Positions 81 to 14,057 of a stretch of 64,000 nucleotides of DNA are shown piece by piece. The stretch is from Paraburkholderia sp. Tr-20389 (GTDB lineage: Bacteria > Pseudomonadota > Gammaproteobacteria > Burkholderiales > Burkholderiaceae), in the NCBI RefSeq assembly GCF_017104565.1, contig NZ_JAAGPD010000029.1:1-64000 (forward strand). The letters run 5' to 3'. Numbering within the stretch: position 1 is the first letter of the stretch; the number at the start of each line of letters is the position of its first letter. Position numbers and translations under genes: made by a program. The notes beneath the pieces were generated by a model, which searched no databases, was not told the origin of the DNA, and saw only the letters and a program-made list of their open reading frames with translations.

Positions 81-123
81 GCCAAAAACAAAATGCCGTT
101 CAGTCGCTTAACTGAACGGCATT
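81..123 (-). terminator. Intrinsic terminator of the 11-gene operon
   Basis: A perfect 12-bp stem (AATGCCGTTCAG at 92-103 pairing with CTGAACGGCATT at 112-123) has an 8-nt loop. Read leftward it is followed by a T-rich tail (TTGTTTTTGG, 91-82). It lies 52 bases past the stop of the decarboxylase gene, the last gene of the leftward operon, as expected for Rho-independent termination. Confidence 0.8.
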
Positions 124-174
124 AGGCCCGCGGGCCGCCCTTTTTCATTTCCGTCTACCGAAACAACGCTGAAA

Positions 175-1626
175 TCAACCAAACGCCAGTGCCATCGCCT
201 CGCGCTCCTGACACAGATACTCGCCATGCACCTGATCCCACACAGCCAGGATCGCATCGGCTGTGCAATCCGCATCGTGCTCCGTCGTGGCCCAGGAAAT
301 GACCGACAGGCGCATCACGGTACGTCCTTGCCAGACTGCCTCGCGCACATCGCAGACGCCCTGCGCCTGAATGCGTTCGACCGTGCGCAACGTCAGCTCG
401 TCGGCGAGCGGGCCGTCGTAGGCCGAGCCGAAGCGCACGATCAACTGGTTCAGTTCGACTTCGTTGAGCAGCGCAACGCCCGGCCCGCGTGCAAGCCGGC
501 GCGCCATGCGGCAAGCAAGCTCGCAATGCCGCGCGATCATCGCCGCGATTCCCTCGCGTCCTAAGGTGCGCACCAGCGCCCACAACGCAAAACCGTGCGC
601 GCGCCGGGAAAGCTCCGGCGCGTAGTGCGCGGGATCGCGTACGCCATCGTCCGCTTGCGGCAGATAGTTCGCGCGGATCGACATCGCGCGCCGGTGCGCG
701 TCGGCGTCGCGCACGAATGCGCAGCCCGTTTCGTACGGTGCCTGCAGCCACTTGTGGGCGTCGGCCGCCCACGAGTCGGCATGCTCGACACCTGCCGCGA
801 GATGCATGCGCTCGGGGCACGCTCGCGCCCACAGCCCGAACGCGGCATCGACGTGCACCCATCCGCCGTGCTCGTGCGCGCACGCGGCGATCTTGCCGAC
901 GGGATCGAACGCGCCCGTCATCATGTGGCCCGCCTGAGCAACGACGATCAGCGGTCCATCGTGCTGCGCGAGCGCCTCGCGCAATGCAGATGGCTGCATG
1001 CGCCCAGCTTCGTCGGCGGGGACCTCAATGACGGACCGCTCCCCGATGCCGAGATAGCGCAGCGCGGCCCGCACGCTGGCATGCGCGCCTTCGCCGACAT
1101 AGACGGAAATGCGCGGCGCGCCGCACAGGCCGTCGGCTTCGACGTCCCAGCCCGCGCGGCGCAACACGGCGTCGCGGGCGGCGGCAAGGCACACGAAGTT
1201 ACTCATCGTCGCGCCCGTCGTGAAACCGACGGAGCAGCCGCGCGGCAGGTCCAGCAGATCGAGGAGCCATTGCGCCACCACCTGTTCGGCGACAGCGGCG
1301 GCGGGGGCGCCGTGGTAGGTCGCGGCATTCTGCCCCCAGACGCTCGTGAGCCAGTCCGCCGCGACGCCCGCGGGATGCGAGCCGCCCGCGACCCAGCCGA
1401 AGAAGCGCGGCCCCGCCGTGCCCAGCAGTCCGGGTTGGGCGATGGCCGCGAGCCGCTCGATGACGGCATCGGCAGGCTCGCCCTGTTCAGGCGTCGGGCC
1501 GCCGAATGCCGCGCGCAGTTCGCCGAAGCTCGCCACCGGACCCGTCGGACGCGACCCGCGCGCGTCATGGAACGCCAGCGCGAGTTGCGCGGCGGTTTCG
1601 AGTGCCTTGCGTGTATCGTCAGCCAT
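175..1626 (-). CDS. Group II pyridoxal-phosphate decarboxylase (aromatic/diaminobutyrate decarboxylase family)
   Basis: This 483-residue protein has the fold-type I PLP decarboxylase layout. Visible marks are an early His for cofactor stacking (H182 in GEGAHAS), Asp260 in VHVDAAFG, which contacts the pyridine nitrogen, and the Schiff-base Lys292 in DAHKWLQ. The family decarboxylates aromatic L-amino acids, diaminobutyrate, glutamate or aspartate; the substrate cannot be read from the sequence. It is the last gene of the purU-sox-gln-glx-folD operon, 27 bases after folD, and a terminator follows it. Its place next to N-demethylation genes suggests it acts on an amino acid or an N-methylated derivative from that pathway, but this is inference only. 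Confidence 0.88.
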   Translation of the reverse strand: MADDTRKALETAAQLALAFHDARGSRPTGPVASFGELRAAFGGPTPEQGEPADAVIERLAAIAQPGLLGTAGPRFFGWVAGGSHPAGVAADWLTSVWGQNAATYHGAPAAAVAEQVVAQWLLDLLDLPRGCSVGFTTGATMSNFVCLAAARDAVLRRAGWDVEADGLCGAPRISVYVGEGAHASVRAALRYLGIGERSVIEVPADEAGRMQPSALREALAQHDGPLIVVAQAGHMMTGAFDPVGKIAACAHEHGGWVHVDAAFGLWARACPERMHLAAGVEHADSWAADAHKWLQAPYETGCAFVRDADAHRRAMSIRANYLPQADDGVRDPAHYAPELSRRAHGFALWALVRTLGREGIAAMIARHCELACRMARRLARGPGVALLNEVELNQLIVRFGSAYDGPLADELTLRTVERIQAQGVCDVREAVWQGRTVMRLSVISWATTEHDADCTADAILAVWDQVHGEYLCQEREAMALAFG

Positions 1627-1653
1627 CGAAGGTCTCCTGCAACGATGCTTGCC

Positions 1654-2553
1654 CTAGCCTGCCGGCACCTGCCAGAAAGGCTGCGGCGGATGAAACGCTT
1701 CCCCGTCCGCGAAACGCTCGGCGGAGCGCAGTGTGTTCTCGATCAGCATCGTGACCGTCATCGGTCCGACGCCGCCCGGCACCGGCGTGATCCACGACGC
1801 CCGCTCGCGCACGGGTTCGAAGTCGACATCGCCAACGATACGCCCATCCGCCATGCGATTGATACCGACATCGATCACGATCGCGCCTTCCTTGACCATC
1901 TCCGCCTTGATGAGCCCCGGCTTGCCGGCGGCGACCACCAGGATGTCGGCATGGATCGTATGCTGCGCGAGGTCGCGTGTCTTCACGTGGCACACCGTGA
2001 CGGTCGCTTCCCGCTGCAGCAGCATCAGCGCCATCGGCTTGCCGACAATATTGCTCGCGCCGACCACCACGACGTTCTTGCCTGCCACGTCGATACCCGT
2101 GGTTTCCAGCAGAAGCTGGACGCCATACGGCGTGCAAGGCGGAAAGATCGAATTGCCGACCACCAGCGCACCGACGTTGTACAGGTGGAAGCCATCCACG
2201 TCCTTGTCGACGACGATGCTCTCGAGCACGCGCCGCGCATTGATCTGCGGCGGCAACGGCAACTGCACGAGAATCCCGTGCGTGCCGCGCTCGACGTTGA
2301 GCGCGGCGATACGGTCGAGCAGTTCCGTCTCGCGACAGTCCGCATGAAAGCGATGCATGAACGAGCGCACGCCGCAGTCGGCACAGGCTTTCACCTTGTT
2401 CGCGACATACAGCTCGGACGCGGGATTGTCGCCGACCAGCACCACGGCGAGACCCGGCACGACACCGCGCGCGGACAGTGCTGCGACGCGCTCGCGAAAG
2501 CGCGCGCGCAGACGCCGCGCGAGATGCCTGCCATCGATCAGTTGCGCTGTCAT
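1654..2553 (-). CDS. folD: FolD, methylene-THF dehydrogenase / methenyl-THF cyclohydrolase
   Basis: The 299-residue product is a full-length FolD. It shows Y49/K53 in ELYVANKVK, the catalytic Tyr/Lys pair of the family, the conserved HGILVQLPLP stretch, the dinucleotide-binding VVVVGASNIVGKP loop, and the C-terminal TPVPGGVGPMTV signature. It oxidises 5,10-methylene-THF to 10-formyl-THF in the cytoplasm. The ATG overlaps the stop of the preceding glutamate-synthase-like gene (ATGA), so translation is probably coupled; a longer open frame upstream is only antisense-like sequence inside that gene. Here FolD would process the methylene-THF made by the Sox enzyme, and PurU, first gene of the operon, would release formate. 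It is probably a second, pathway-dedicated folD. Confidence 0.93.
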   Translation of the reverse strand: MTAQLIDGRHLARRLRARFRERVAALSARGVVPGLAVVLVGDNPASELYVANKVKACADCGVRSFMHRFHADCRETELLDRIAALNVERGTHGILVQLPLPPQINARRVLESIVVDKDVDGFHLYNVGALVVGNSIFPPCTPYGVQLLLETTGIDVAGKNVVVVGASNIVGKPMALMLLQREATVTVCHVKTRDLAQHTIHADILVVAAGKPGLIKAEMVKEGAIVIDVGINRMADGRIVGDVDFEPVRERASWITPVPGGVGPMTVTMLIENTLRSAERFADGEAFHPPQPFWQVPAG

Positions 2554-3917
2554 CGTGCGCCGTTCAGGCCGGGAATCCAGCTCGTCCCGGCGAGCGGAAC
2601 ACGCGCCATCGCCGCCGCTTCGACCGTGAGCGCCACGAGGTCTTCCAGCTCCAGGTGGTGCACGTTCTGCTTGCCGCACGCGCGCGCGATCGTCGTCAGT
2701 TCCATGTTCAGCGTCTTCAGATAGTTCTTCAGACGCTTCGCGCCGACATCGGGCTTCAGACGCTCCTGCAGCACCGCGTCCTGCGTCGTGATGCCGACGG
2801 GGCACTTGCCCGTATGGCAGTGGTGGCAGAAACCGGGCGCGGTGCCGAGGTTCGCGTAATCGTCGAGCGCGGACACGTGCTGACCGTTCTCGACATACGA
2901 CGCGCTATTGCACCCCAGCGACACGAGCACGCCCTGGCCGATCGCAACGGCGTCCGCGCCCATCGCCAGCGCCTTCGCGATGTCGGCGCCGCTGCGAATG
3001 CCGCCCGAAATGATCAGCTGGACCTGGTCCTTCATGTTCAGGTCTTCGAGCGCATCGACGGCCTGGCGCAGCGCGGCGAGTGTCGGAATGCCGACGTTCT
3101 CGATGAAACAGGTCTGCGTCGCCGCCGTGCCGCCCTGCATGCCATCGACGACGATCACGTCTGCGCCCGCATGTACCGCAAGCTTCACGTCGTTGAACGT
3201 GCGCGTCGCGCCGACCTTCACGTAGATCGGCGTCTGCCAGTCGGTCATCTCGCGGAGTTCGAGAATCTTGATCTGCAGATCGTCGGGGCCCGTCCAGTCT
3301 GGATGCCGCGATGCCGAACGCTGATCGATGCCTTCCGGCAGCGTGCGCATCTTCGCGACCCGCGGCGAGATCTTCTGGCCCAGCAGCATGCCGCCGCCGC
3401 CCGGCTTCGCGCCCTGTCCGATCACGACTTCGATCGCGTCGGCCTTGCGCACGTCATCGGGATTGAAGCCGTAGCGCGACGGCAGGCACTGATACACGAG
3501 CGTCTTCGACGAGCGACGCTCTTCCGGCGTCATGCCGCCGTCGCCCGTCGTCGTCGAGGTGCCCATTTCCGTGGCCGCGCGGCCGAGCGACTCTTTCACG
3601 TTCGCCGACAGCGCGCCGAAGCTCATGCCCGCGACGGTGATCGGAATCGCAAGCTCGATCGGCTTCTTCGCGAAGCGCGTGCCGAGCACGGTCTTGGTCA
3701 CGCATTTTTCGCGGTATCCCTCCAGCGGATAGCGCGACAGCGAGGCACCGAGAAACAGCAGGTCGTCGAAATGCGGCACGCGCCGCTTCGCGCCGAGGCC
3801 ACGGATCTCATACAGTCCGTGTGCCGCGGCGTTCTGGATATAGTCGATCGTCTTGCGGTCGAAGCCCCAGGACTCTTCAGTGGCGATGTGTTTCATATGT
3901 ACGGGCTTGATTTCCAT
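2550..3917 (-). CDS. glxD: FMN-binding glutamate-synthase-like subunit (GlxD / MgsC)
   Basis: This 455-residue protein matches the synthase (FMN) domain of the glutamate synthase large chain, here as a separate polypeptide. It carries the GMSFGALS loop, the glycine-rich AKPGGGGMLLGQKIS segment, an FMN phosphate-binding ISGGIRSGADIAKALAMGADAV-type region, and a Cys-rich motif CHHCHTGKCPVG suited to an iron-sulfur cluster. In Rhizobiales the three-gene form is glxBCD; in methylamine users the homologous MgsABC makes N-methylglutamate. It lies 15 bases after glxC and overlaps folD by four bases. It should be the catalytic core of a GlxBCD complex receiving nitrogen from the amidotransferase subunit. 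The name glxD versus mgsC depends on an unproven substrate. Confidence 0.9.
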   Translation of the reverse strand: MEIKPVHMKHIATEESWGFDRKTIDYIQNAAAHGLYEIRGLGAKRRVPHFDDLLFLGASLSRYPLEGYREKCVTKTVLGTRFAKKPIELAIPITVAGMSFGALSANVKESLGRAATEMGTSTTTGDGGMTPEERRSSKTLVYQCLPSRYGFNPDDVRKADAIEVVIGQGAKPGGGGMLLGQKISPRVAKMRTLPEGIDQRSASRHPDWTGPDDLQIKILELREMTDWQTPIYVKVGATRTFNDVKLAVHAGADVIVVDGMQGGTAATQTCFIENVGIPTLAALRQAVDALEDLNMKDQVQLIISGGIRSGADIAKALAMGADAVAIGQGVLVSLGCNSASYVENGQHVSALDDYANLGTAPGFCHHCHTGKCPVGITTQDAVLQERLKPDVGAKRLKNYLKTLNMELTTIARACGKQNVHHLELEDLVALTVEAAAMARVPLAGTSWIPGLNGAR

Positions 3918-3932
3918 GGCGGGGTCCCCGGT

Positions 3933-4631
3933 TCAATATTCCTGATTCGCGTCGGCATTCCAGTGATACAGCGAGCGGGCCGATGCAACGCGTCTGAATT
4001 CCTTGGGATCGATCTCCGCGAAGGCCGGCCCCGCCGCGCGCAGCAGTTGCGCGACGGCTTCCACATCCGCGGGCTGCATCGGCTCTTCGCGCGCATCGGC
4101 GCCAAGCGACTTGACCTTGCCGCGCACATAGATCACCGCCTCGTACAGCGAATCGCCGAGCGCATCGCCGGCATCGCCGCAGATCACGATCCGGCCTGCC
4201 TGCGCCATGAACGCCGAGAAGCTGCCGACCGATCCCTTCACGACGATGTCCGCGCCCTTGAGCGAGATGCCGCAGCGCAGGCCCGCATCGCCTTCGATGA
4301 CGAGCAGCCCGCCATGCGCCGACGCGCCCGCTGCATTCGATGCGAAGCCTTTCACGTGCACGCGGCCGCTCATCATGTTCTCGGCCACACCCGTGCTGGC
4401 GCTGCCCGAGATCGTCACCTTCGCTTCCTTGTTCATGCCGGCGGCGTAGTAGCCCGCGTGGCCGTCGATCTCGACTTCGATGGGACAATCGATGCCAACC
4501 GCGATGTTGTGCGCGCCGTCGGGATTCGAGATCAGCACGCGGCGCGTGCCTGCTTTCGCGGCCTCGCGATGCAGGAAGCCGTTCACGTCCGTCACCGAGG
4601 CGGACGTCAGGTCGAAGTTCACACTGTCCAT
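3933..4631 (-). CDS. glxC: GXGXG-repeat glutamate-synthase-like subunit (GlxC / MgsB)
   Basis: The 232-residue product consists mostly of the right-handed beta-helix built from G-x-x-G-x-x-x-G repeats, as in the C-terminal domain of glutamate synthase (GHAGYYAAGMNKEA, GVAENMMSG, GLLVIEGDAGLRCG, GRIVICGDAGDALGDS). The domain has a structural, subunit-bridging role in the large synthase. Its start lies 13 bases inside the preceding amidotransferase gene, and glxD begins 15 bases after its stop, so the three subunits are translated from one tightly packed message. No catalytic residues are expected here. Confidence 0.88.
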   Translation of the reverse strand: MDSVNFDLTSASVTDVNGFLHREAAKAGTRRVLISNPDGAHNIAVGIDCPIEVEIDGHAGYYAAGMNKEAKVTISGSASTGVAENMMSGRVHVKGFASNAAGASAHGGLLVIEGDAGLRCGISLKGADIVVKGSVGSFSAFMAQAGRIVICGDAGDALGDSLYEAVIYVRGKVKSLGADAREEPMQPADVEAVAQLLRAAGPAFAEIDPKEFRRVASARSLYHWNADANQEY

Positions 4632-5527
4632 ACGTACATCTCCTCAGGTGCCGGTTCGAAAACGCGCGCGTGCTTGATATCGGGCAGATGCGCGAGCGAG
4701 CGGAACTCGGAAGCGATCGCGACGAGATCGTCCGTCTCGGCCACCACGGCCGGCTTGCACGCGAACGGATCGCGGATCAGCGCGAGCTTGTCCGGCGTGC
4801 CCATCAGGAACGTGTAGAAGCCGTCGAGTTGTTCGAAGCCCTTTTGCAGTGCGACTTCGAGGTCGTCGCCTTCGCGCAGCCGGTATTCGAGGAAGCGGCA
4901 CGCGGCTTCCGTGTCGTTGTCGGTATCGAAGCGGATGCCGTGCGGCTCCAGCATGCGCCGCACGCCATTCGGATTCGACAGCGAGCCGTTGTGCACGAGG
5001 CAAAAGTCTTCGCCTGCTGTGAACGGATGCGCGCGATCGGGCGTCACGGCGGATTCCGTCGCCATCCGCGTATGGCCGACCAGATGCGTACCCGTCAGTC
5101 CGCTGAACGCGTAGCGGTCCGCGACCTGGCCGGGCGTGCCCGTGTCCTTGTAGAGGTCGATCATGCGGCCCGTCGACAGCACGTGCAGGCCCGGATGCGT
5201 TTCGCGGATCCAGTGCTTGACCGTCTCGGCGTCGATGGCCACGGTCAGCACGGCGTGATTGTCCTTGACCTGCACCGACGCCTTCGCGCCGAGATGCTGG
5301 TTCAGTTCATGCACCAGGCCTTGCCAGTTGAAGTCCGCGCCCTCTTCCGTCAGACCCGAGTAAAGGCTGATCTTGCGCACGCCGTCGGCGACGGGTTCCG
5401 TGAACACTGCAAGGCCGGCCGAGTCGGGGCCGCGCTCCGTCATGCCCAGCAGCATGGGCACCATCAATTCGCCGAGCCGTTCACGCAACGCCGGCTTCTT
5501 GACGAGTAGTCCGACAATTCCACACAT
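4619..5527 (-). CDS. glxB: Class II glutamine amidotransferase subunit (GlxB / MgsA)
   Basis: The chosen start gives MCGIVGLL, placing the nucleophilic Cys at position 2, the N-terminal catalytic residue of class II (Ntn) glutamine amidotransferases. A strong GAGGAG ribosome-binding site sits eight bases upstream. The 302-residue protein retains the family motifs TERGPDSAG and LVGHTRMATES and a HNGSLSN glutamine-binding loop. It hydrolyses glutamine and passes ammonia (or, in N-methylglutamate synthase, methylamine from gamma-glutamylmethylamide) to the FMN subunit. It follows the type III glutamine synthetase by 50 bases, which fits a glutamine or glutamylmethylamide relay. An in-frame extension upstream lacks homology and was not used. 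Confidence 0.9.
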   Translation of the reverse strand: MCGIVGLLVKKPALRERLGELMVPMLLGMTERGPDSAGLAVFTEPVADGVRKISLYSGLTEEGADFNWQGLVHELNQHLGAKASVQVKDNHAVLTVAIDAETVKHWIRETHPGLHVLSTGRMIDLYKDTGTPGQVADRYAFSGLTGTHLVGHTRMATESAVTPDRAHPFTAGEDFCLVHNGSLSNPNGVRRMLEPHGIRFDTDNDTEAACRFLEYRLREGDDLEVALQKGFEQLDGFYTFLMGTPDKLALIRDPFACKPAVVAETDDLVAIASEFRSLAHLPDIKHARVFEPAPEEMYVWTV

Positions 5528-5577
5528 CGTTATCTCCTCGCGCTCATATTCAAGCGGAAAGCTGTTCAGTTTCTCGA

Positions 5578-6906
5578 TCAGAAAAATTCGAGGTAGGTCT
5601 TCTGTTCCCAGTCCGACACATGGCGCATGTACTCGATCCACTCCATGTGCTTCAGACGCAGGAATTCGCCGCCCGCCGGTCCGAGCGCTTCGAGCATCAC
5701 CTCGTCGCGCTCCAGTGCACACAGTGCCGCTTCCAGGTTTTGCGGCAGGATGCTGATGCCGTTTTCCTTGAGCTGTTCAGGAGTCATCTCGTAGAGATTG
5801 GCGTTACACGGCTTGCCGGGCTCCAGCCGGTTCTCGACGCCATCGAGACCCGCCGCGATCACGGCCGCCGTCGCGAGATACGCGTTGCACGCGGCATCCG
5901 GCAGGCGAAGCTCGATCCGTCCGCCGGGAATGCGCACCATCGACGAGCGGTTGTTGTCGCCGTAGCTGACATACGCGGGCGCCCACGTCGCCCCCGTCAG
6001 CGAACGCCCGACCACGAGCCGCTTGTACGAATTGACCGTCGGCGCGCAGATGGCCGTGAGCGCGGCCGCGTGCTTGAGAATGCCCGCCGTCCAGTGATAC
6101 GCGAGCTTCGACAGGCCGAGGCCGTTCTCGTCGTGATCGTCGGCGAACAGGTTTTTCTTGCCGTCCGAAATCGACATATGCATGTGCATGCCGTTGCCCG
6201 GACGATTCGCGAAAGGCTTCGGCATGAAAGAACAGACGAGGCCCAGTTCGTTCGCGATCTCCGCTGCCGCCATCTTGAAGAACACGTAGTGATCGCAGGA
6301 CTTCAGGCAATCGGTGTACGTGTAATTGATTTCGAACTGGCCGTTCGCGTCTTCGTGGTCGATCTGATAGACGTCGATGCCCGCCTTGATCAGCGCATCG
6401 GTCAGCTTCTCCAGGAACACGCGCGAACGCGACAGGCCCTTGTAGTCGTAGCACGGCTTCGGCAGTGCATCGGTGTGATCGCACGGCACGATCGATCCAT
6501 CAGCGCCCTTGCGCAGCAGCGAGAATTCCGGCTCCAGACCCGTGTTCAGGATCCAGCCGCGATCTTCGAGGCGGCTGACCTGCTTCTTCAGCGTCACGCG
6601 GCTTTCGAACGGCCAGGGCTCGCGCTTCACATGCCCGTCGCAGACGACACGCGCATAGCCCGGCTGCCAGGGCACCAGCTGCAAGGTATTGATATCGCCG
6701 ACGGCCATGAAGTCGGGCCCTTGCGGATCGATACCGAGCCCCCACACGGCGAAGCCGGCAAAACCGGCGCCTGCCGTGAGGATGCTGTCGAGGTGCGCGG
6801 CAGGCACGGATTTCGTCTTCGCGACTCCGTGAATGTCGACGAATTGCGCGAGGATGTATTTCACCTCGTTGTCTTTGAGAAACTTCCGGGCGTCTTCGGG
6901 GGTCAT
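5578..6906 (-). CDS. glnT: Type III glutamine synthetase-like enzyme (GlnT or gamma-glutamylmethylamide synthetase GmaS)
   Basis: The 442-residue protein is a glutamine synthetase of the short GlnT type. The N-terminal beta-grasp half contains [15 protein letters not shown]. The catalytic half shows the Glu metal ligand in [12 protein letters not shown], the [13 protein letters not shown] motif, and NSYKRLVVG for nucleotide and substrate binding. GlnT-type enzymes make glutamine; close relatives (GmaS) ligate methylamine to glutamate. In the N-methylglutamate pathway gmaS lies beside mgsABC and mgdABCD, which is the arrangement seen here. It sits between soxG and glxB. Sequence alone does not separate the two activities. 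Confidence 0.9.
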
Positions 6907-7001
6907 GTAAATGTCCTTAAACGTGATAAGTCCAGGGTTTCGAAAAACGCCGGCCCGCCTTCGCGCCCGCGTCGACTACTTGCTCGCTGCCGGGTTCCCG
7001 G

Positions 7002-7661
7002 CTAGTCGATATCCGTGATTGCAGCGACTCCGACAGGGCCGCCACCCAGCTCGCGAGCGATGCCGGCAAGGCACTCCCACAGATACAAACCGTATGTGCC
7101 GTCGGCCCATATCCGGTAGTAAGGCCTGCCCGCCCGGACGCCCGGCATGACGGTGACGGCGACGCCCGCCATCGAAGTCAGCACGACTGGCCGGGCCGCC
7201 GGATCGAGGGCGGCGAAATTGACATTGCAGGTTTGCAGCAGCAGCTCGTGCACGGCGTCGCCGCACAACACCAGCGCGACGTCCTGATGCAGCACGGGAT
7301 AGACATGCACAGGCGTGTCGAGGTGAGCCATCCTGGCCGAGCTGCCTTGCGTGAGACCGTCTTCGATCAGGTACTCGGAGATGCCGAGCCGCAGCACCAC
7401 GCCGCCGCCTGCAAGCGGCGCCCAGCTGTTCGGCTGCTCCGGCACGGGGATGTCCTGCGCCTGCAGCCACGCCGCCGCGCCCTTGCCCTTGAAGCCCGTG
7501 CGAGGCAGGAACGACACGTCGGCGATGCCGAGCGTCGCCGCGCGCATGGTGTCGGCGGCATCGACCTGTTCCTCGACGCGCATGCCTTCGCGCACGCCCG
7601 ATCGCAAGGTGGGCGCTTTCCATGCATCGCACACCGGGCTCATTCGAAGTGGTGCGTTCAT
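7002..7661 (-). CDS. soxG: Sarcosine oxidase gamma subunit family (SoxG / MgdD)
   Basis: The 219-residue product matches the small gamma subunit of heterotetrameric sarcosine oxidase, a folate-binding-fold protein related to aminomethyltransferase. Recognisable stretches are GVVLRLGISEYLIED, the HVYPVLHQDVALVLCGDAVHELL segment, and the C-terminal WECLAGIARELGG. It overlaps the alpha-subunit gene by four bases (ATGA), which indicates coupled translation and a 1:1 complex. The same family is MgdD of N-methylglutamate dehydrogenase. No cofactor ligands are expected in this subunit. Confidence 0.86.
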   Translation of the reverse strand: MNAPLRMSPVCDAWKAPTLRSGVREGMRVEEQVDAADTMRAATLGIADVSFLPRTGFKGKGAAAWLQAQDIPVPEQPNSWAPLAGGGVVLRLGISEYLIEDGLTQGSSARMAHLDTPVHVYPVLHQDVALVLCGDAVHELLLQTCNVNFAALDPAARPVVLTSMAGVAVTVMPGVRAGRPYYRIWADGTYGLYLWECLAGIARELGGGPVGVAAITDID

Positions 7662-10624
7662 GCTGTCTCCTTCCTCGGCGCAGCAGCTTCTATCGTTACG
7701 GCGTCTTTTTGACGCTCGCTCTCAGGGTCGTAGAACGGTGTCGGCACGACGGTCGCGGACACCATGCGGCCGCCGCTCGAACGGAAGGTGATGCGGGTGC
7801 CGGGCTCCGCCTGGGCGGGCCGCACGAATGCGAGCCCGATGGTCTTTTGCAGCGTCGCGCTCCACGCGACGCTCGTGACCCGCCCCGCAATCTCGCCGCC
7901 TTCGATCACCAGATGACACTCGCGCAGACTGCTGTCGCGCATGCCCGCATCGAGCGCGAAACCGACGAGACACTGTTTGGCCGGCGTCTGATCGATGATC
8001 TGCAAACTGCGTTTGCCGACGAAGAACGGCTTGTCCATCTTCACGGCCCACGCCATGCCGGCATCGCGCGGCGTCGTCAGACCGTCGGTGTCCTGGCTCA
8101 CGATCACGTGACCTTTCTCCAGCCGCAGCAGACGCTGCGCTTCGACGCCGAACGGACGCACGCCATACTCCTTGCCCGTTTCGAGCAGCGCTCGCCAGAG
8201 CGCTGCGCCATACTCGGCCGGGATATGGATTTCGTAGCCCCATTCGCCGACGAAACCCACTCGCATCAGACGCGCAGGCACGCGGTTCTGACCGAGCGCG
8301 ACGCCCGTCACGCGCACGCCGAGGTACGGAAACGCCGCCGTCGACAGATCGAGATCCACGAGCTTGCTGAGCACCGCGCGCGACGCCGGTCCGGCCAGAT
8401 TCACGGCGGCGAACGCGCCCGTCACGTTGACGATGCCGCAGTCGAGCTGCCAGATCGTGTTGAGGCGGGACAACTCGCGATAGATGGCGGCCGCGCCCGA
8501 TGTCGTGGTCGTGAAATAGAAGTGGTCGTCGGCGAGACGGGCGATCACGCCGTCGTCGATCACGACACCGGACTCGTCGCACATCACCGCGTAGCGCGTC
8601 ATACCCGCTTTCAGCCCCGCGTACTTCGACACGTACACGCGTTCGAGAAACTCGGCGGCCTGCGGTCCGCGCACTTCGATCTTGCCGAGCGTGCCGACAT
8701 CGATGATGCCCACGCCGTTGCGCACGGCGAGCGCTTCTTCTTCGATACACGTCGCACGCGCCTTGCCCGCGACCGCGTAATACTCGGGACGCTGCCAGAC
8801 GCCCGCCGGCATCCACACCGCGTTGAGCAACCGATGCTGAGCGTACAGCGGCGTGCGCCGTTCCGGGTTGAAGCCGCGTCCGGCGAGATGCGACATCGGC
8901 ACGGGATGGAAGAACGGCCGCGCCGTGGTCGTGCCGACTTGCTGCGGCTCCTTGCCCGTCAGCCGCGCGAGAATGCGCAAGCCGTTCATGTTCGAGTGCT
9001 TGCCCTGGCTCGGACCCATGCCGTTGGTCGAGAAGCGCTTCAGCAGTTCGATGTTGTCGAAGCCTTCCTGCACGGCATTTTCGAAATCCTTCAGCTGCAG
9101 GTCTTCGTCGAAATCGACGAAGTTCTTGCCCGACGTGTGACCGACGATCGGCCATGAATGCGACGGCGATTCGCGTTCCGCGATTCGTGACTGCATCGTG
9201 CTTGCCGCCTTGCCGTCGCCGAGTCCGCAGTGCGCCGCGGCCTGCATGCCGGCGCGCTCGCCGTCCTGAAGCTTGTGGCCGAGCGTGTACACGCCGTTCA
9301 CGCGGCCGCAGGCGAACACGCCTGGCGGCAATTGTTCAGGCACAAACTGTTCGACAGCGTGGTCGAACTGCATCTTCGTGCCCGCCTGATACAGCAGATT
9401 CGCAGCGGGTGCCCAGCCGACGCTCATCAGCAGCGTGTCGCATTCGATCAGGCGCGTGTTCGCCGTCGAATCGCGCAAGCCGCCTTGCGTCGAGAACGCA
9501 CCAACGCGCACGCCCGTCAGCCGACCGCCCGCTTTGCCTGCCACGGCCTCGACGACGCAGCTCGACGCCAGCACGTCGACGCCCTTCGCCCTGACTTCGC
9601 GTTCGAGATCGCCGCTCCCATGCGATGCGCGCAGATCCACCACGGCCACCACTTCGATGCCGCGCGCGAGCATGTCGAGGGCCGCGCGATAGCCGTCGGC
9701 ATTCGCGGCCAGCACCACCGCGCGCTTGCCGGGCGCGACGGCATAGCGGTAAGCGAGCCGTTGCGCCGCCGACGCCAGCATCACGCCGGGCAGATCGTTG
9801 TTGCGAAACACGGCGGGCTGCTCGAATGCGCCGCTCGCGACGATCACCGCTTTCGCACGCATCTTGGTGATGCGCGTCGAGTCCACCAGCGGCACCCACA
9901 GATCGGCGTAATACGCTGCCGCGAGCGTGTTCGTCATCACGCGGATACGCGGATGCCCGAGCACGCGCATTTCCAGCGAGCAGCTCGTATCGAAGCGCTG
10001 CTCGTCACCGCCCAGCTGATAGCCGCCGCTGCCGCCGATGCGCGCATTCTCGTCGACGACGACGACATCGGCACCTGCTTGCGCCGCCGCCAGCGCCGCC
10101 GACAGACCCGATGGCCCCGCACCGATCACCAGCACGTCGCAGAAGCCGTAGCGCTTCGGCGTGCGGATATGCGGCGCATTGAAATCGACGGTGCCGAGGC
10201 CCGTCATCGCGCGGAACATGCGTTCCCAGCGCGGGAACCAGCGCTTGCTATAGAACGCCTTGTAGTAGAAGCCGACGGGCAGGAACGCCGAGAGCTTGCC
10301 GACGATCCGTGCGCGATCTGCTTCGACGCCACCGAACGTATTCACGGAATGCCAGTTGCCGCCAGGCGTCAGCGCCGTCACATCGGCGCGCACGTTCAGC
10401 CGCTGGCCGTCCTGAAGCATCACGTTGACATCGTGATTGGCAAGCGACAGCACGCCGCGCGGACGGTGATACTTGAAGCTGCGGCCGAGCACGCGCACAT
10501 CCGACGCCCACAGTGCACTTGTGATCGTGTCGCCCGCGAGGCCCGCGTATTGCCTGCCTTCGTATGAGAAGTCGATGCGTGTGTTGCGCTCGATCCATTC
10601 GCCGCGATGAGGAGTCAGACGCAT
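7658..10624 (-). CDS. soxA: Sarcosine oxidase alpha subunit family (SoxA / MgdC)
   Basis: This 988-residue protein has the layout of a heterotetrameric sarcosine oxidase alpha chain. Residues about 1-100 form the N-terminal ferredoxin-like domain (SALWASDVRVLGRSFKYHRPRG). From about 160 lies the NAD/FAD-binding domain (DVLVIGAGPSGLSAALAAA, then VVVDENARIGGSGGY). The C-terminal 380 or so residues form an aminomethyltransferase (GcvT-like) domain that binds THF and captures the methyl carbon as 5,10-methylene-THF. Its start codon immediately follows the stop of soxD. In N-methylglutamate dehydrogenase the homologue is MgdC. The gene order soxB-D-A-G matches both systems. Confidence 0.93.
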   Translation of the reverse strand: MRLTPHRGEWIERNTRIDFSYEGRQYAGLAGDTITSALWASDVRVLGRSFKYHRPRGVLSLANHDVNVMLQDGQRLNVRADVTALTPGGNWHSVNTFGGVEADRARIVGKLSAFLPVGFYYKAFYSKRWFPRWERMFRAMTGLGTVDFNAPHIRTPKRYGFCDVLVIGAGPSGLSAALAAAQAGADVVVVDENARIGGSGGYQLGGDEQRFDTSCSLEMRVLGHPRIRVMTNTLAAAYYADLWVPLVDSTRITKMRAKAVIVASGAFEQPAVFRNNDLPGVMLASAAQRLAYRYAVAPGKRAVVLAANADGYRAALDMLARGIEVVAVVDLRASHGSGDLEREVRAKGVDVLASSCVVEAVAGKAGGRLTGVRVGAFSTQGGLRDSTANTRLIECDTLLMSVGWAPAANLLYQAGTKMQFDHAVEQFVPEQLPPGVFACGRVNGVYTLGHKLQDGERAGMQAAAHCGLGDGKAASTMQSRIAERESPSHSWPIVGHTSGKNFVDFDEDLQLKDFENAVQEGFDNIELLKRFSTNGMGPSQGKHSNMNGLRILARLTGKEPQQVGTTTARPFFHPVPMSHLAGRGFNPERRTPLYAQHRLLNAVWMPAGVWQRPEYYAVAGKARATCIEEEALAVRNGVGIIDVGTLGKIEVRGPQAAEFLERVYVSKYAGLKAGMTRYAVMCDESGVVIDDGVIARLADDHFYFTTTTSGAAAIYRELSRLNTIWQLDCGIVNVTGAFAAVNLAGPASRAVLSKLVDLDLSTAAFPYLGVRVTGVALGQNRVPARLMRVGFVGEWGYEIHIPAEYGAALWRALLETGKEYGVRPFGVEAQRLLRLEKGHVIVSQDTDGLTTPRDAGMAWAVKMDKPFFVGKRSLQIIDQTPAKQCLVGFALDAGMRDSSLRECHLVIEGGEIAGRVTSVAWSATLQKTIGLAFVRPAQAEPGTRITFRSSGGRMVSATVVPTPFYDPESERQKDAVTIEAAAPRKETA

Positions 10625-10882
10625 TCAGGCCTCCCCGTTCGACAGCCACGTGCGCAGCACGAGATCTTTCGCGGTATCGCGCTCGGCGATGAACCACGTG
10701 TTGCTCGGTGTGTGGCACCACCATTCCTGCTTCACAGCCGCTGCGCCATTACGGCAGAACACATAGTCGGCCCATTGCGCGTCGCTGGCCGTCGCCGGGT
10801 CGGGCATCGGGCGAACCTCGCCCCAGTACGCGAATTCCGACACCGGGCGCGCGCCGTTCACCGGACAGGTCATGATCTTCAT
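10625..10882 (-). CDS. soxD: Sarcosine oxidase delta subunit family (SoxD / MgdB), reduced zinc site
   Basis: The ATG at 10882 gives an 85-residue protein (MKIMTCPVNGARPVSEF...), the usual delta-subunit length. In the characterised corynebacterial oxidase the zinc ion is held by Cys6, Cys9, His59 and Cys63. The equivalents here are C6, N9, H57 and N61, so two of the four ligands are missing while the spacing and the WFIAERDT block are kept. This marks a delta-subunit subtype that probably does not bind zinc in the standard way. The gene ends directly against soxA and follows soxB by 14 bases. A much longer open frame in this phase is overlap with soxB and was not used. Confidence 0.9.
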   Translation of the reverse strand: MKIMTCPVNGARPVSEFAYWGEVRPMPDPATASDAQWADYVFCRNGAAAVKQEWWCHTPSNTWFIAERDTAKDLVLRTWLSNGEA

Positions 10883-10896
10883 CGTGATTCTCCAGG

Positions 10897-12138
10897 TCAG
10901 TGACCGACGGATGCCGCGCCCTTCTCGCCCGTCAGCGAGAACTGGCGGAAACGGTCGAGCGAGAAGCCCTCGATAAGCGGATGGGTGGCGTCGTTCGCGA
11001 CCGTGTGGGACATCGTCTTGCCGCACACGGGTGTGGCCTTGAAGCCCCACGTGCCCCAGCCCGCGTCGAGATAGAAGCCTTCGACAGGCGTCTTGCCCAT
11101 GATCGGCGCGAAGTCCGGCGTCATGTCGGCCATCCCGGCCCATTGACGCATCACCTTCGCCTGCGACAGGAACGGGAACATCTCGAGCATGTGCGCCGTG
11201 AGGCCTTCGACGAAATCGAGCGTCGAGCGCGTCGAGTGCAGTTCGTACGGATCGAGCGACGCGCCCATCACGAGTTCGCCGCGCGCCGACTGGCTGATGT
11301 ACACGTGCAGGCTGCCCGACACGAGAATCGGATCGAGCCACGGCTTGAGCGGCTCGCTCACCATCGCCTGCAGCGGATGAATGAAGATGGGAGTCCGCAC
11401 ACCGACCATGTCCGTCACGCGCGGCGTCGAGCCCGCCACTGCGCACAGCACCTTGTTCGTCGAGATGTAGCCGCGCGACGTCTTCACACCCTTGACCTTG
11501 CCGCCCACCACATCGATGCCGAGCACTTCCGTCTGCTGATGGATCTCGACGCCGCGCTGGTCCGCGCCGCGCCCGTAACCCCAGGCAACGGCGTCGTGCC
11601 GCGCGACCGCGCCCGGCGCGTGATACAGCGCACCCATGATGGGTGCGACGCCGCCACACGAGATGTCGATCATCGGTGCGGCTTTTTTCACCTCGTTCGG
11701 ACCCACGACTTCCGAGTCCACCCCGTAGTGCTTGTTGACTTCGGCGCGCCAGCGCATCGTGCGCATCGCCGAATCGGTGTGCGCGAGCGTGTAGTGGCCG
11801 CGCGTCGAATAGAACAGATTGAGATCGAAGTCCTGCGACAGGTCCTGCCACAGCTTCACCGACTCGTCGTAGAACTGCACGCCTTCGGGCGTCAGATAGT
11901 TCGAGCGGATGATGGTGGTGTTACGCCCGGTGTTACCTCCTCCGATATACCCCTTCTCCAGCACGGCGACATTCGTGATGCCGTGCTCCTTCGCGAGATA
12001 GTAGGCGGACGCAAGACCGTGGCCTCCCGCGCCGATGATCACAACGTCATATGAACGACGCAAAGTGTCGTGTCTCGTGAACATCCTCGGTTCCGGATGT
12101 TTCTTCGAGAGAGCGAAGCGGACGAGACGCCAAGGCAT
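10897..12138 (-). CDS. soxB: Sarcosine oxidase beta subunit family (SoxB / MgdA), FAD-dependent N-demethylase
   Basis: The 413-residue DAO-family flavoprotein begins with a short N-terminal segment and then the dinucleotide-binding motif VVIIGAGGHGLASAYYLAKE. Further family blocks are GGNTGRNTTIIRSNY and, near the C-terminus, YLDAGWGTWGFKATPVCGKTM. In heterotetrameric oxidases this subunit oxidises the N-methyl amino acid and carries covalent FMN. A good AAGGAG site seven bases before the ATG supports the start. It is first of the four sox genes and lies 70 bases after purU; a GC-rich hairpin just before its ribosome-binding site might tune expression. The substrate could be sarcosine, N-methylglutamate or a similar secondary amine. 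Confidence 0.92.
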   Translation of the reverse strand: MPWRLVRFALSKKHPEPRMFTRHDTLRRSYDVVIIGAGGHGLASAYYLAKEHGITNVAVLEKGYIGGGNTGRNTTIIRSNYLTPEGVQFYDESVKLWQDLSQDFDLNLFYSTRGHYTLAHTDSAMRTMRWRAEVNKHYGVDSEVVGPNEVKKAAPMIDISCGGVAPIMGALYHAPGAVARHDAVAWGYGRGADQRGVEIHQQTEVLGIDVVGGKVKGVKTSRGYISTNKVLCAVAGSTPRVTDMVGVRTPIFIHPLQAMVSEPLKPWLDPILVSGSLHVYISQSARGELVMGASLDPYELHSTRSTLDFVEGLTAHMLEMFPFLSQAKVMRQWAGMADMTPDFAPIMGKTPVEGFYLDAGWGTWGFKATPVCGKTMSHTVANDATHPLIEGFSLDRFRQFSLTGEKGAASVGH

Positions 12139-12208
12139 AAAACGCTCCTTATGCAGCCCCGCTAGGGGCGGCTGTGCGACGTGTTCGGTTGGGGAAGCGG
12201 CCGCGCGC

Positions 12209-13072
12209 TTAGCGCAACACGATGGTCTTGTTGCCGTGGATCAGCACGCGATCCTCGATGTGATAACGCAAGCCTCGCGCCAACACGGCCTTCTCGATGT
12301 CGCGGCCAAGGCGCACGAGATCGTCCGGCCGGTCCGAGTGACTCACGCGGATCACGTCCTGCTCGATGATCGGCCCCTGATCGAGCTCTTCCGTCACGTA
12401 GTGACAGGTGGCGCCCGTCAGCTTCACGCCTCGGCTATAAGCCTGGTGATAAGGCTTCGCGCCGACGAAGCTCGGCAGGAACGAATGATGGATGTTGATG
12501 ATCCGGCCGGGATAGTCCGCGCACAGCTTCGGCGACAGCACCTGCATGTAGCGCGCGAGCACCATCGTGTCGGCGCGCGCGTCTTCGAACAGGCGCTGCA
12601 CTTCGTCGTAGGCCTGCGCCTTGTTGTCGGGCGTGACGGGCACGTAATGAAACGGAATGCCGTGCCACTCGACGAAGCTGCGCCATGTCTCGTGGTTCGA
12701 GATCACACATGGAATCTCGATGTCCAGCTCGCCCGCTTTCCAGCGCGCCAGCAGATCGTAGAGACAGTGTTCGAGCTTCGACACGAGTATCACGACGCGC
12801 TTCTTGACCGAGTTGTCGGAGATCTTCCAGTCCATCGCGAACTCCTTCGCGATGTGAGCGAAGCGCTCGCGAAAACCGCCGATGCCGAACGGCAGCGACT
12901 CGGCCACGATCTCGTGGCGCATGAAGAAGCGCTTCTCGACCTCGTCCGCGTGATGGGTGGCCTCGATGATCCACCCGCGATGCTCGGCAAGGAACGTGCT
13001 TACAGCCGACACGATGCCGATACGGTCGGGACAGGACAGAGTCAACGTGAAGCGGTGCGTATTGGAGGACAT
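12209..13072 (-). CDS. purU: PurU, formyltetrahydrofolate deformylase
   Basis: The 287-residue protein has an N-terminal ACT domain (RFTLTLSCPDRIGIVSAVSTFL) and a C-terminal formyltransferase-like hydrolase domain with NIHHSFLPSF and the downstream Asp in TEELDQGPI. It hydrolyses 10-formyl-THF to formate and THF. The start MSSNTHRF at 13072 is preferred because longer in-frame starts at 13108 and 13099 fall in or at the edge of the predicted promoter (-10 hexamer 13108-13113). PurU opens the operon, so THF recycling and demethylation are produced together. It is likely a pathway-specific copy. Confidence 0.92.
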   Translation of the reverse strand: MSSNTHRFTLTLSCPDRIGIVSAVSTFLAEHRGWIIEATHHADEVEKRFFMRHEIVAESLPFGIGGFRERFAHIAKEFAMDWKISDNSVKKRVVILVSKLEHCLYDLLARWKAGELDIEIPCVISNHETWRSFVEWHGIPFHYVPVTPDNKAQAYDEVQRLFEDARADTMVLARYMQVLSPKLCADYPGRIINIHHSFLPSFVGAKPYHQAYSRGVKLTGATCHYVTEELDQGPIIEQDVIRVSHSDRPDDLVRLGRDIEKAVLARGLRYHIEDRVLIHGNKTIVLR

Positions 13073-13107
13073 GGTGTAGTCGATTCGAAGAGGAATCATT
13101 GAGCACA

Positions 13108-13136
13108 ACAGTAGCCAGGCTAAATTCGAGTGTCAA
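13108..13136 (-). promoter_or_regulatory. Sigma70-type promoter of the purU-sox-gln-glx-folD operon
   Basis: Reading leftward, TTGACA (13136-13131) is followed by exactly 17 bases and TACTGT (13113-13108). Transcription should begin near 13101, about 30 bases before the preferred purU start. The -35 box is a perfect consensus and the -10 box matches four of six. It is the only strong promoter visible ahead of the operon. Confidence 0.65.
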
Positions 13137-13151
13137 TGTGAATCAACTTTT

Positions 13152-13166
13152 TTTCCTGTCAGGAAA
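13152..13166. promoter_or_regulatory. Perfect palindrome just upstream of the purU promoter, candidate operator
   Basis: TTTCCTG-T-CAGGAAA is a perfect 7-1-7 inverted repeat. Its centre is about 28 bases upstream of the -35 box, near -58 relative to the predicted start, a typical activator position. The XRE-cupin regulator encoded immediately upstream is the most economical candidate to bind it. Confidence 0.5.
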
Positions 13167-13415: not shown

Positions 13416-14057
13416 TCAGGTGCCCAGCTCGGGCGACTGGCCGTACATGATCACGGTGATGAAGCGGATGGGAAGCTTGATCAAACGCTCGGGACCGTGC
13501 GCGACCGAACCTTGGAACGTCAGGGCATCGCCTGGCTGCAGCAGATAGCTGCGATTGCCGTGCCGATACTCCATCTTGCCCTGCAGCATGTAGATGAACT
13601 CCGTGCCGGGATGCTCGAAGGTGGGGAACACTTCGGCTTCGTCGTCCATCGTGATGAGGAACGGCTCGAACAGCTTGACGGGCCCCTGGTCGTACGCGAG
13701 CAGATGATACGTATGCCCCTTGGTGGTCCCGCGCCGTACCACCTCCATGCCTTTGCCGGCCTTCACATGCTGTGCATTGCCCTCGCGATGCTCGAAGTTC
13801 TTGAACAGCGCGGAAATGGAAATGCCCAATGCGCGCGCAAGGCTCACGATCGAATCGAGACTGGTCGATACCTGCCCGTTCTCGATCTTCGACACCATGC
13901 TGCGCGACAGGCCGCTTTGCTCGGCGAGGTCGGCAATCGTGAGCCCCTGATTCGTGCGGTGCTCCTTGACGACCTTGCCGAGGAACGACTCAATCGATCT
14001 TCCGTCGCCCGTGTCTTCCAGCTGGGTGGTCAGATCGGGTTCTATCTCGCTCTTCAT
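13416..14057 (-). CDS. XRE-cupin transcriptional regulator
   Basis: The 213-residue protein has an XRE helix-turn-helix at about 26-85 (TIADLAEQSGLSRSMVSKIENGQ) and a C-terminal cupin sensor domain at about 130-205 (FPTFEHPGTEFIYMLQGKMEYRHG, then LLQPGDALTFQGSVAHGPERL). Such proteins control catabolic genes for amines and amino acids by binding a small ligand in the cupin. It is read in the same direction as the purU-sox operon, with a 343-bp gap holding the operon promoter and a perfect palindrome, so it is the likely local regulator. The effector is unknown. Confidence 0.9.
   Translation of the reverse strand: MKSEIEPDLTTQLEDTGDGRSIESFLGKVVKEHRTNQGLTIADLAEQSGLSRSMVSKIENGQVSTSLDSIVSLARALGISISALFKNFEHREGNAQHVKAGKGMEVVRRGTTKGHTYHLLAYDQGPVKLFEPFLITMDDEAEVFPTFEHPGTEFIYMLQGKMEYRHGNRSYLLQPGDALTFQGSVAHGPERLIKLPIRFITVIMYGQSPELGT

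Follow-up and report, generated by a model that had tools for sequence, protein, structure and literature searches.

Does the long gene cluster at the start of contig NZ_JAAGPD010000029.1 of Paraburkholderia sp. Tr-20389 consume methylamine or sarcosine, and where does the carbon go? The window, i.e., the first 64 kb of this contig (the genome comprises 9.0 Mb in 129 contigs), carries a minus-strand run of eleven genes, 13072–175, in the order purU, mgdA, mgdB, mgdC, mgdD, gmaS, mgsA, mgsB, mgsC, folD and a gene for a pyridoxal phosphate (PLP)-dependent decarboxylase. The original prediction had described eleven co-directional genes that could form a module leading from methylamine or sarcosine to formate and glutamate. 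All eleven reading frames indeed lie on the minus strand, and the gene set combines the N-methylglutamate pathway with folate-linked oxidation to formate; of the two substrates left side by side, methylamine is favoured and sarcosine is not. The operon is real and not a chance arrangement, because other genera have the same genes in the same order, and homologs suggest that it is read as a single transcript. Judged from sequence, it very probably encodes, under a single promoter, a complete methylamine-using N-methylglutamate pathway that includes a folate exit leading to formate.

Methylamine is favoured over sarcosine by the trees of GmaS, MgdA and MgdC (the three proteins for which trees were built), by a PDB match of GmaS, by the cysteines of MgdB and by a separate soxBDAG operon in the genome. 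The product of gmaS (glnT-like; 5578–6906, minus strand, like every gene of the operon), a predicted gamma-glutamylmethylamide synthetase, scores 730 bits against PDB entry 9qur, 'Glutamate--methylamine ligase', and the next PDB sequence, 7cql, scores 343 bits. In a tree of 27 rows the window GmaS falls within an 18-row clade (93/88) together with 9qur, Methyloversatilis (M. universalis) and Methylophaga; the alphaproteobacterial GlnT rows, 7cql and the genome's own GlnA and PuuA-like proteins fall outside it. The GmaS of genome G087, which has an internal stop, was excluded from the alignment and trees. Alphaproteobacterial GlnT is about 42% identical to the window GmaS, and this identity, together with the separate clade, disfavours reading gmaS as an ammonia-type GlnT. 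The alphaproteobacterial clade is not itself established as ammonia-specific, since it holds 7cql, which we take to be a gamma-glutamylmethylamide synthetase structure. The nearest named plasmid-borne GmaS proteins are those of pBPHY01 of Paraburkholderia phymatum STM815 (99.1% identity), P. caribensis MBA4 (96.2%) and strain PGU19 (95.5%). Adjoining gmaS are the genes of a three-subunit N-methylglutamate synthase, the arrangement by which the N-methylglutamate pathway is recognised: mgsA (glxB-like; 4619–5527) for the class II amidotransferase subunit, with a GATase_6 domain and the N-terminus MCGIVG; mgsB (glxC-like; 3933–4631) for the GXGXG subunit (PF01493); and mgsC (glxD-like; 2550–3917) for the glutamate-synthase-like subunit, with PF01645 at 317 bits and CX2CX4C in its translation.

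MgdABCD, the predicted N-methylglutamate dehydrogenase, has the four-subunit plan and the domains of the sarcosine oxidase (SOX) TSOX (PDB 2gag), with the flavin histidine and the folate domain kept, but departs from it in clade, in profile scores and in its delta subunit. The curated NCBIfam cut-offs are missed by all three subunits that have a sox score: the flavin subunit MgdA (SoxB-like; 10897–12138) reaches 492 bits against a cut-off of 529, the large subunit MgdC (7658–10624), with Fer2_4, nucleotide-binding, SO_alpha_A3 and folate-binding GCV_T domains, reaches 841 against 1164 for soxA, and the delta subunit MgdB (SoxD-like; 10625–10882) reaches 56 against 116. The gamma subunit MgdD (7002–7661, in the SoxG position) was assigned from its position and from homologs in other mgd operons; a Pfam and NCBIfam profile search with it at E 0.001 gave zero matches. 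In the MgdA and MgdC trees, the window proteins share a clade of 21 rows (100/100) with Methyloversatilis, Methylophaga, Acidithiobacillus and Zoogloea, which also takes in four plasmid rows (Acinetobacter, Pseudomonas, Ruegeria and Paracoccus). The remaining five rows comprise the SOX of the genome itself, that of PGU19, the S. meliloti rows and either the beta subunit of 2gag (MgdA tree) or M. bullatum (MgdC tree). A solved structure is represented in the MgdA tree only, from which rows named type2 and L109 were removed before building, and the window MgdA does not share its clade. The GlnT and SoxB/SoxA phylogenies called for by the original prediction thus set GmaS, MgdA and MgdC beside Methyloversatilis and Methylophaga, GmaS also with 9qur, apart from alphaproteobacterial GlnT and from the genome's own SOX; the grouping of all subunits with sarcosine oxidase and GlnT clades, which had been named as grounds for abandoning methylamine, did not appear for these three proteins. 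MgdA matches at E≤1e-90 in 99 genomes (its own included) divide into 11 genomes at 78–100% identity and others at 47–51%. MgdB has CPVNG where SOX rows have CPxC (CPxCG), i.e., two cysteines of the SOX pattern are gone, and most MgdB rows are alike in this; in sarcosine oxidase the delta-subunit cysteines bind zinc. The separate soxBDAG operon lies on contig 31, and its relative in PGU19 is annotated as a sox operon.

In the proposed pathway, GmaS would join methylamine to glutamate with ATP to give gamma-glutamylmethylamide, MgsABC would convert this to N-methylglutamate, and MgdABCD would oxidise N-methylglutamate, regenerating glutamate and passing the methyl carbon to tetrahydrofolate (THF) on the GCV_T domain of MgdC. 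FolD (1654–2553; NF010786 at 437 bits, cut-off 421), the methylene-THF dehydrogenase/cyclohydrolase, would turn methylene-THF into formyl-THF, from which the formyltetrahydrofolate deformylase PurU (12209–13072; TIGR00655 at 357 bits, cut-off 286) would release formate and free THF. These activities are assigned by analogy with homologs, as is the preference for methylene-THF over free formaldehyde as the main product; the accessible text of PMC4543880 also considers free formaldehyde a product of the N-methylglutamate pathway. Elsewhere in the genome, a second folD copy (G000:C57, 59% identical to the operon folD) and a formate dehydrogenase above its family cut-off are directly visible. For M. 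universalis FAM5, the accessible part of PMC5023235 describes mgdD and mgsC mutants that are unable to grow on methylamine, and a 6.6–12.8-fold increase of the eight pathway genes on methylamine, with q-values of 0.65–0.75 in the rows of its table that were examined.

The same enzymes may serve nitrogen capture only, with methylamine as a nitrogen source and its carbon lost as formate and CO2; this role is compatible with the pathway proposed here, and we consider it reasonably likely. The exit genes end at formate, a formate dehydrogenase is present, and Pseudomonas sp. C5pp uses methylamine as its sole nitrogen source via these enzymes, according to the accessible text of PMC8292978. The carbon may nevertheless be used as well, genes of the serine cycle or of other C1-assimilation routes not having been searched for in the genome.

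The genomic context was compared across 84 loci, 80 from the named genome collection and four from plasmids; the 80 are the best of 497 relatives and are biased to GmaS near the query, contig ends truncate many of the loci, and several type-2 loci possibly repeat those of named genomes, so the counts should be read with this in mind. The order purU-mgdABCD-gmaS-mgsABC-folD without the PLP gene was found in 12 of the 84 loci (Zoogloea, Azoarcus, Dechloromonas, Gallionella, Acidithiobacillus and two unclassified metagenome-assembled genomes (MAGs)) and with the PLP gene in four more. The loci of the five named genera match the window in the order and strand of all ten core genes; they differ in that the PLP decarboxylase was not found, the gene for an XRE-cupin regulator is divergent where present, and several carry amt. 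The annotation of the A. caldus plasmid gives nine of the ten genes in order, with an unannotated gap at the mgdD position. As the arrangement is this widespread (12 of the 84 loci; the A. caldus plasmid), the integration of purU and folD was rejected as a novelty, and the stress laid on it earlier proves overstated; purU-folD-mgdABCD is also published for Pseudomonas sp. C5pp (accessible text of PMC8292978). That strain has the same enzyme set, including purU and folD, but its gmas-mgsABC-amt and purU-folD-mgdABCD operons lie 37.7 kb apart, and no PLP gene is mentioned in the same portion of the paper. M. universalis has the same eight pathway genes, in strain EHg5 (L185) in the order mgdABCD-gmaS-mgsABC, with identities to the window of 83% for MgdA, 85% for MgsC and 71% for GmaS; unlike the window, the 21 kb fetched from EHg5 hold no homolog of purU, folD or the PLP gene; the XRE-cupin gene, co-directional in the window, runs divergently there. 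On a plasmid of Acinetobacter baumannii FDAARGOS_540 (L106, L193), typed as mobilizable, gmaS-mgsABC is accompanied by two amt genes, and purU-folD-mgdABCD stands at a separate site. The accessible part of PMC5748958 mentions no mgd, purU or folD, and no paper with both Paraburkholderia and methylamine in its title or abstract was found.

The eleventh gene was counted correctly in the original prediction, which neither named nor discussed it. It (175–1626; PF00282 at 191 bits) encodes a predicted group II PLP amino-acid decarboxylase of the Pyridoxal_deC family, the sole match to itself in the genome at E≤1e-10, and is the only lineage-specific part found, the operon being otherwise of the known N-methylglutamate kind. 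Five of the 84 loci have it, all of the window's operon clade; it was not found in the other 79, some of which are cut by contig ends. It stands behind folD or a folD remnant in all 11 distinct copies seen of the Paraburkholderia/Caballeronia operon clade: the window, four further genomes (L042, L043, L044 and L046), P. diazotrophica (L045/L110), P. phymatum, P. caribensis MBA4, PGU19 (counted from tblastn matches on one record), Caballeronia glathei and P. oxyphila. Its dN/dS of 0.09–0.23 in eight comparisons with the window indicates a working gene under purifying selection. A passenger unrelated to the pathway and linked to it by chance is conceivable, if not the reading we favour: the gene evolves faster than most operon genes, four other genomes of the genus have homologs of 55–63% identity that are not near gmaS, and homologs of 54–55% stand alone in Sinorhizobium. 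Against chance linkage, the gene is present in every one of those 11 copies, it follows folD by 27 nt in the window and precedes the terminator, and it is kept in C. glathei (L111), where the folD behind mgsC is broken and the PLP reading frame is open over the aligned stretch.

As to the substrate of the decarboxylase, its His, Asp and PLP-binding Lys, presumably the catalytic residues, align with those of a solved decarboxylase. No curated family that names a substrate was matched above its cut-off, the best NCBIfam match reaching 155 bits against 900. The PDB matches are to DOPA (167 bits), tryptophan (156), 'pyridoxal-dependent' (133) and glutamate (131) decarboxylases and do not tell the substrate; in the alignments, the PRFFGWVAGGSHP stretch differs from the DOPA and glutamate decarboxylase templates. 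On Sinorhizobium plasmids (L200, L201) the stand-alone homolog is annotated as an aspartate aminotransferase family protein. Deriving a role from the neighbours of stand-alone homologs was tried and gave nothing. As a guess, the enzyme most plausibly decarboxylates an amino acid in support of amine or glutamate metabolism. That the enzyme makes the substrate of the pathway itself (glycine to methylamine, or alanine to ethylamine), opening an amino-acid-to-C1 route without external methylamine, seems very unlikely, and no evidence points to glycine in particular.

Several observations weigh against the methylamine pathway as proposed, and the role of the decarboxylase, which this pathway leaves unexplained, is one of them. 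The S. meliloti soxBDAG linked to glnT and glxBCD (L190) and the MgdC of M. bullatum (L192) fall on the SOX side of the trees, so alphaproteobacterial N-methylglutamate dehydrogenases may lie there too; the split is not a clean one by function. The gamma- and alphaproteobacterial rows within the MgdA clade are just 53–56% identical to the window MgdA, close to the 47–51% of SoxB, and the MgdB of A. caldus retains the CPxC motif. The GmaS clade leaves out 7cql, and the tree program warned of long branches in the MgdA/MgdC and GmaS trees. No homolog of an ammonium/methylamine transporter was found in the window, and one lies within the fetched stretch in 12 of the 37 loci with mgd genes. Even so, it is extremely improbable that the operon degrades sarcosine from glycine betaine, with a true sarcosine oxidase SoxBDAG and with glnT/glxBCD assimilating ammonia: the domains and the family names do match sarcosine oxidase, and His173 of TSOX beta, which we take to be its flavin-binding histidine, aligns with His163 of the window MgdA (counted from the ATG at 12084), but the sub-cut-off sox scores, the identity split of MgdA, trees with MgdA and MgdC outside the SOX group, the MgdB cysteines, a separate soxBDAG and a synthetase of GmaS rather than GlnA type led us to reject it.

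Expression of the methylamine operon would start from a promoter read from the sequence at 13136–13108 (minus strand), with a −35 TTGACA at 13136–13131, a 17-nt spacer and a −10 TACTGT at 13113–13108. The description of this site as a consensus promoter holds for the perfect −35 element, whose TTGAC is retained at that position in 11 of 11 aligned operon copies (10 distinct, as L045 and L110 are the same contig); the −10 element is weak, and a consensus promoter scan did not list the site. Directly upstream lies a candidate operator (13152–13166, minus strand), the perfect palindrome TTTCCTGACAGGAAA, which is identical in 8 of the 11 aligned copies (7 of the 10 distinct) and degenerate in L111, L112 and L046. 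Visual inspection of the DNA upstream of purU or mgdA in several further genera showed a looser TTTC...GAAA pattern with AGTTGAC-type DNA behind it; a k-mer search across all upstream regions was uninformative, whereas the alignment of purU upstream regions was informative. The XRE-cupin protein (13416–14057, minus strand; HTH_3 and Cupin_2 domains) is probably the regulator of the operon, because a homolog (at least 45% identity) is present in 66 of the 84 fetched loci, usually divergent from the first operon gene; by analogy, it would act at the palindrome 13166–13152. At the other end, the terminator scan found a strong intrinsic terminator (92–123, minus strand) with a 14-pair stem followed by a T-rich tail and no other minus-strand terminator-like site within the operon, in agreement with the single terminator predicted before. 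Scans of the window for Rfam families (gathering threshold) and tRNA gave zero matches.

The 'many' ATGA overlaps first reported come down to two, at mgdC/mgdD and mgsC/folD, besides a 13-nt overlap of mgsA and mgsB and a gap of zero between mgdB and mgdC. The widest intergenic gaps are those between mgdD and gmaS (95 nt) and between purU and mgdA (70 nt). The start of mgdA at 12138 is backed by an upstream AAGGAG and by an N-terminus common to L046 and L185. The purU-mgdA gap (12139–12208, minus strand) contains, by eye, an inverted repeat that is rich in G+C and lacks a T run, possibly an element of RNA processing or stability.

A different arrangement, gmaS-mgsABC without mgd genes, was found in 47 of the 84 loci; the absence applies to the fetched stretch, and the Acinetobacter plasmid locus L106, for example, has purU-folD-mgdABCD elsewhere. 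A 395-aa flavoprotein of the DAO family (at least 60% identical to that of P. sprentiae) is present in 32 of these 47, EtfB and a HutD-like protein in 27 each, and ETF-ubiquinone oxidoreductase (ETF-QO) and N-formylglutamate deformylase (hutG) in 19 each; none of the five occurs in any of the 37 loci with mgd genes. The flavoprotein-type loci include L109 (P. sprentiae WSM5005 plasmid, 98434–119756), L158, L161 and L047–L055. Several of the 15 mgd-less loci lacking the flavoprotein are short, and the link is not strict, since five of them (L106, L135, L159, L183 and L189) span 9–10 kb on both sides. Among the 99 genomes, 22 of the genus have the GmaS type of these loci, and 21 of these 22 have no MgdA match above 51%. 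The flavoprotein-HutD-EtfBA-HutG-ETF-QO group also adjoins PutA in G001 (L205; the PutA and HutG of this locus were tested) and a gene of PutA-like size and start in G003 (L203); in G005 (L204) a part of the group adjoins such a gene. These groups (L203 5217–17410, L205 6098–16738, L204 9598–19900) have no gmaS in the stretch, and L205 also carries a Pot-type ABC transporter. Beside PutA, the group could belong to N-methylproline catabolism that reaches the same intermediate. Since both contexts could yield N-methylglutamate, from methylamine or from N-methylproline via PutA, the gene content suggests a folate-free route: ETF-linked oxidation of N-methylglutamate to N-formylglutamate, which HutG would then hydrolyse to formate and glutamate. 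In the collection of papers searched, none joined N-methylglutamate, N-formylglutamate and methylamine. In L161 (10711–16592), from a Rhodoferax MAG, gmaS-mgsABC is followed by a DmmA-family gene, a reductase-like gene, a reading frame without an NCBIfam match and a GcvT-like gene, then purU-folD; the first four are probably dmm genes, and the whole is likely a dimethylamine-to-formate extension.

The flavoprotein group, if it acts in this way, would give related bacteria a second, apparently folate-free means of finishing the N-methylglutamate pathway. In the operon studied here, the terminal decarboxylase, conserved as it is, offers a specific place to look for an enzyme activity that may be new. 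The database records inspected annotate such genes as sarcosine oxidase subunits, type III glutamate--ammonia ligase and glutamate synthase; interpreting the whole set as a single methylamine operon would correct the likely physiology of Paraburkholderia such as P. phymatum, P. caribensis and P. diazotrophica.

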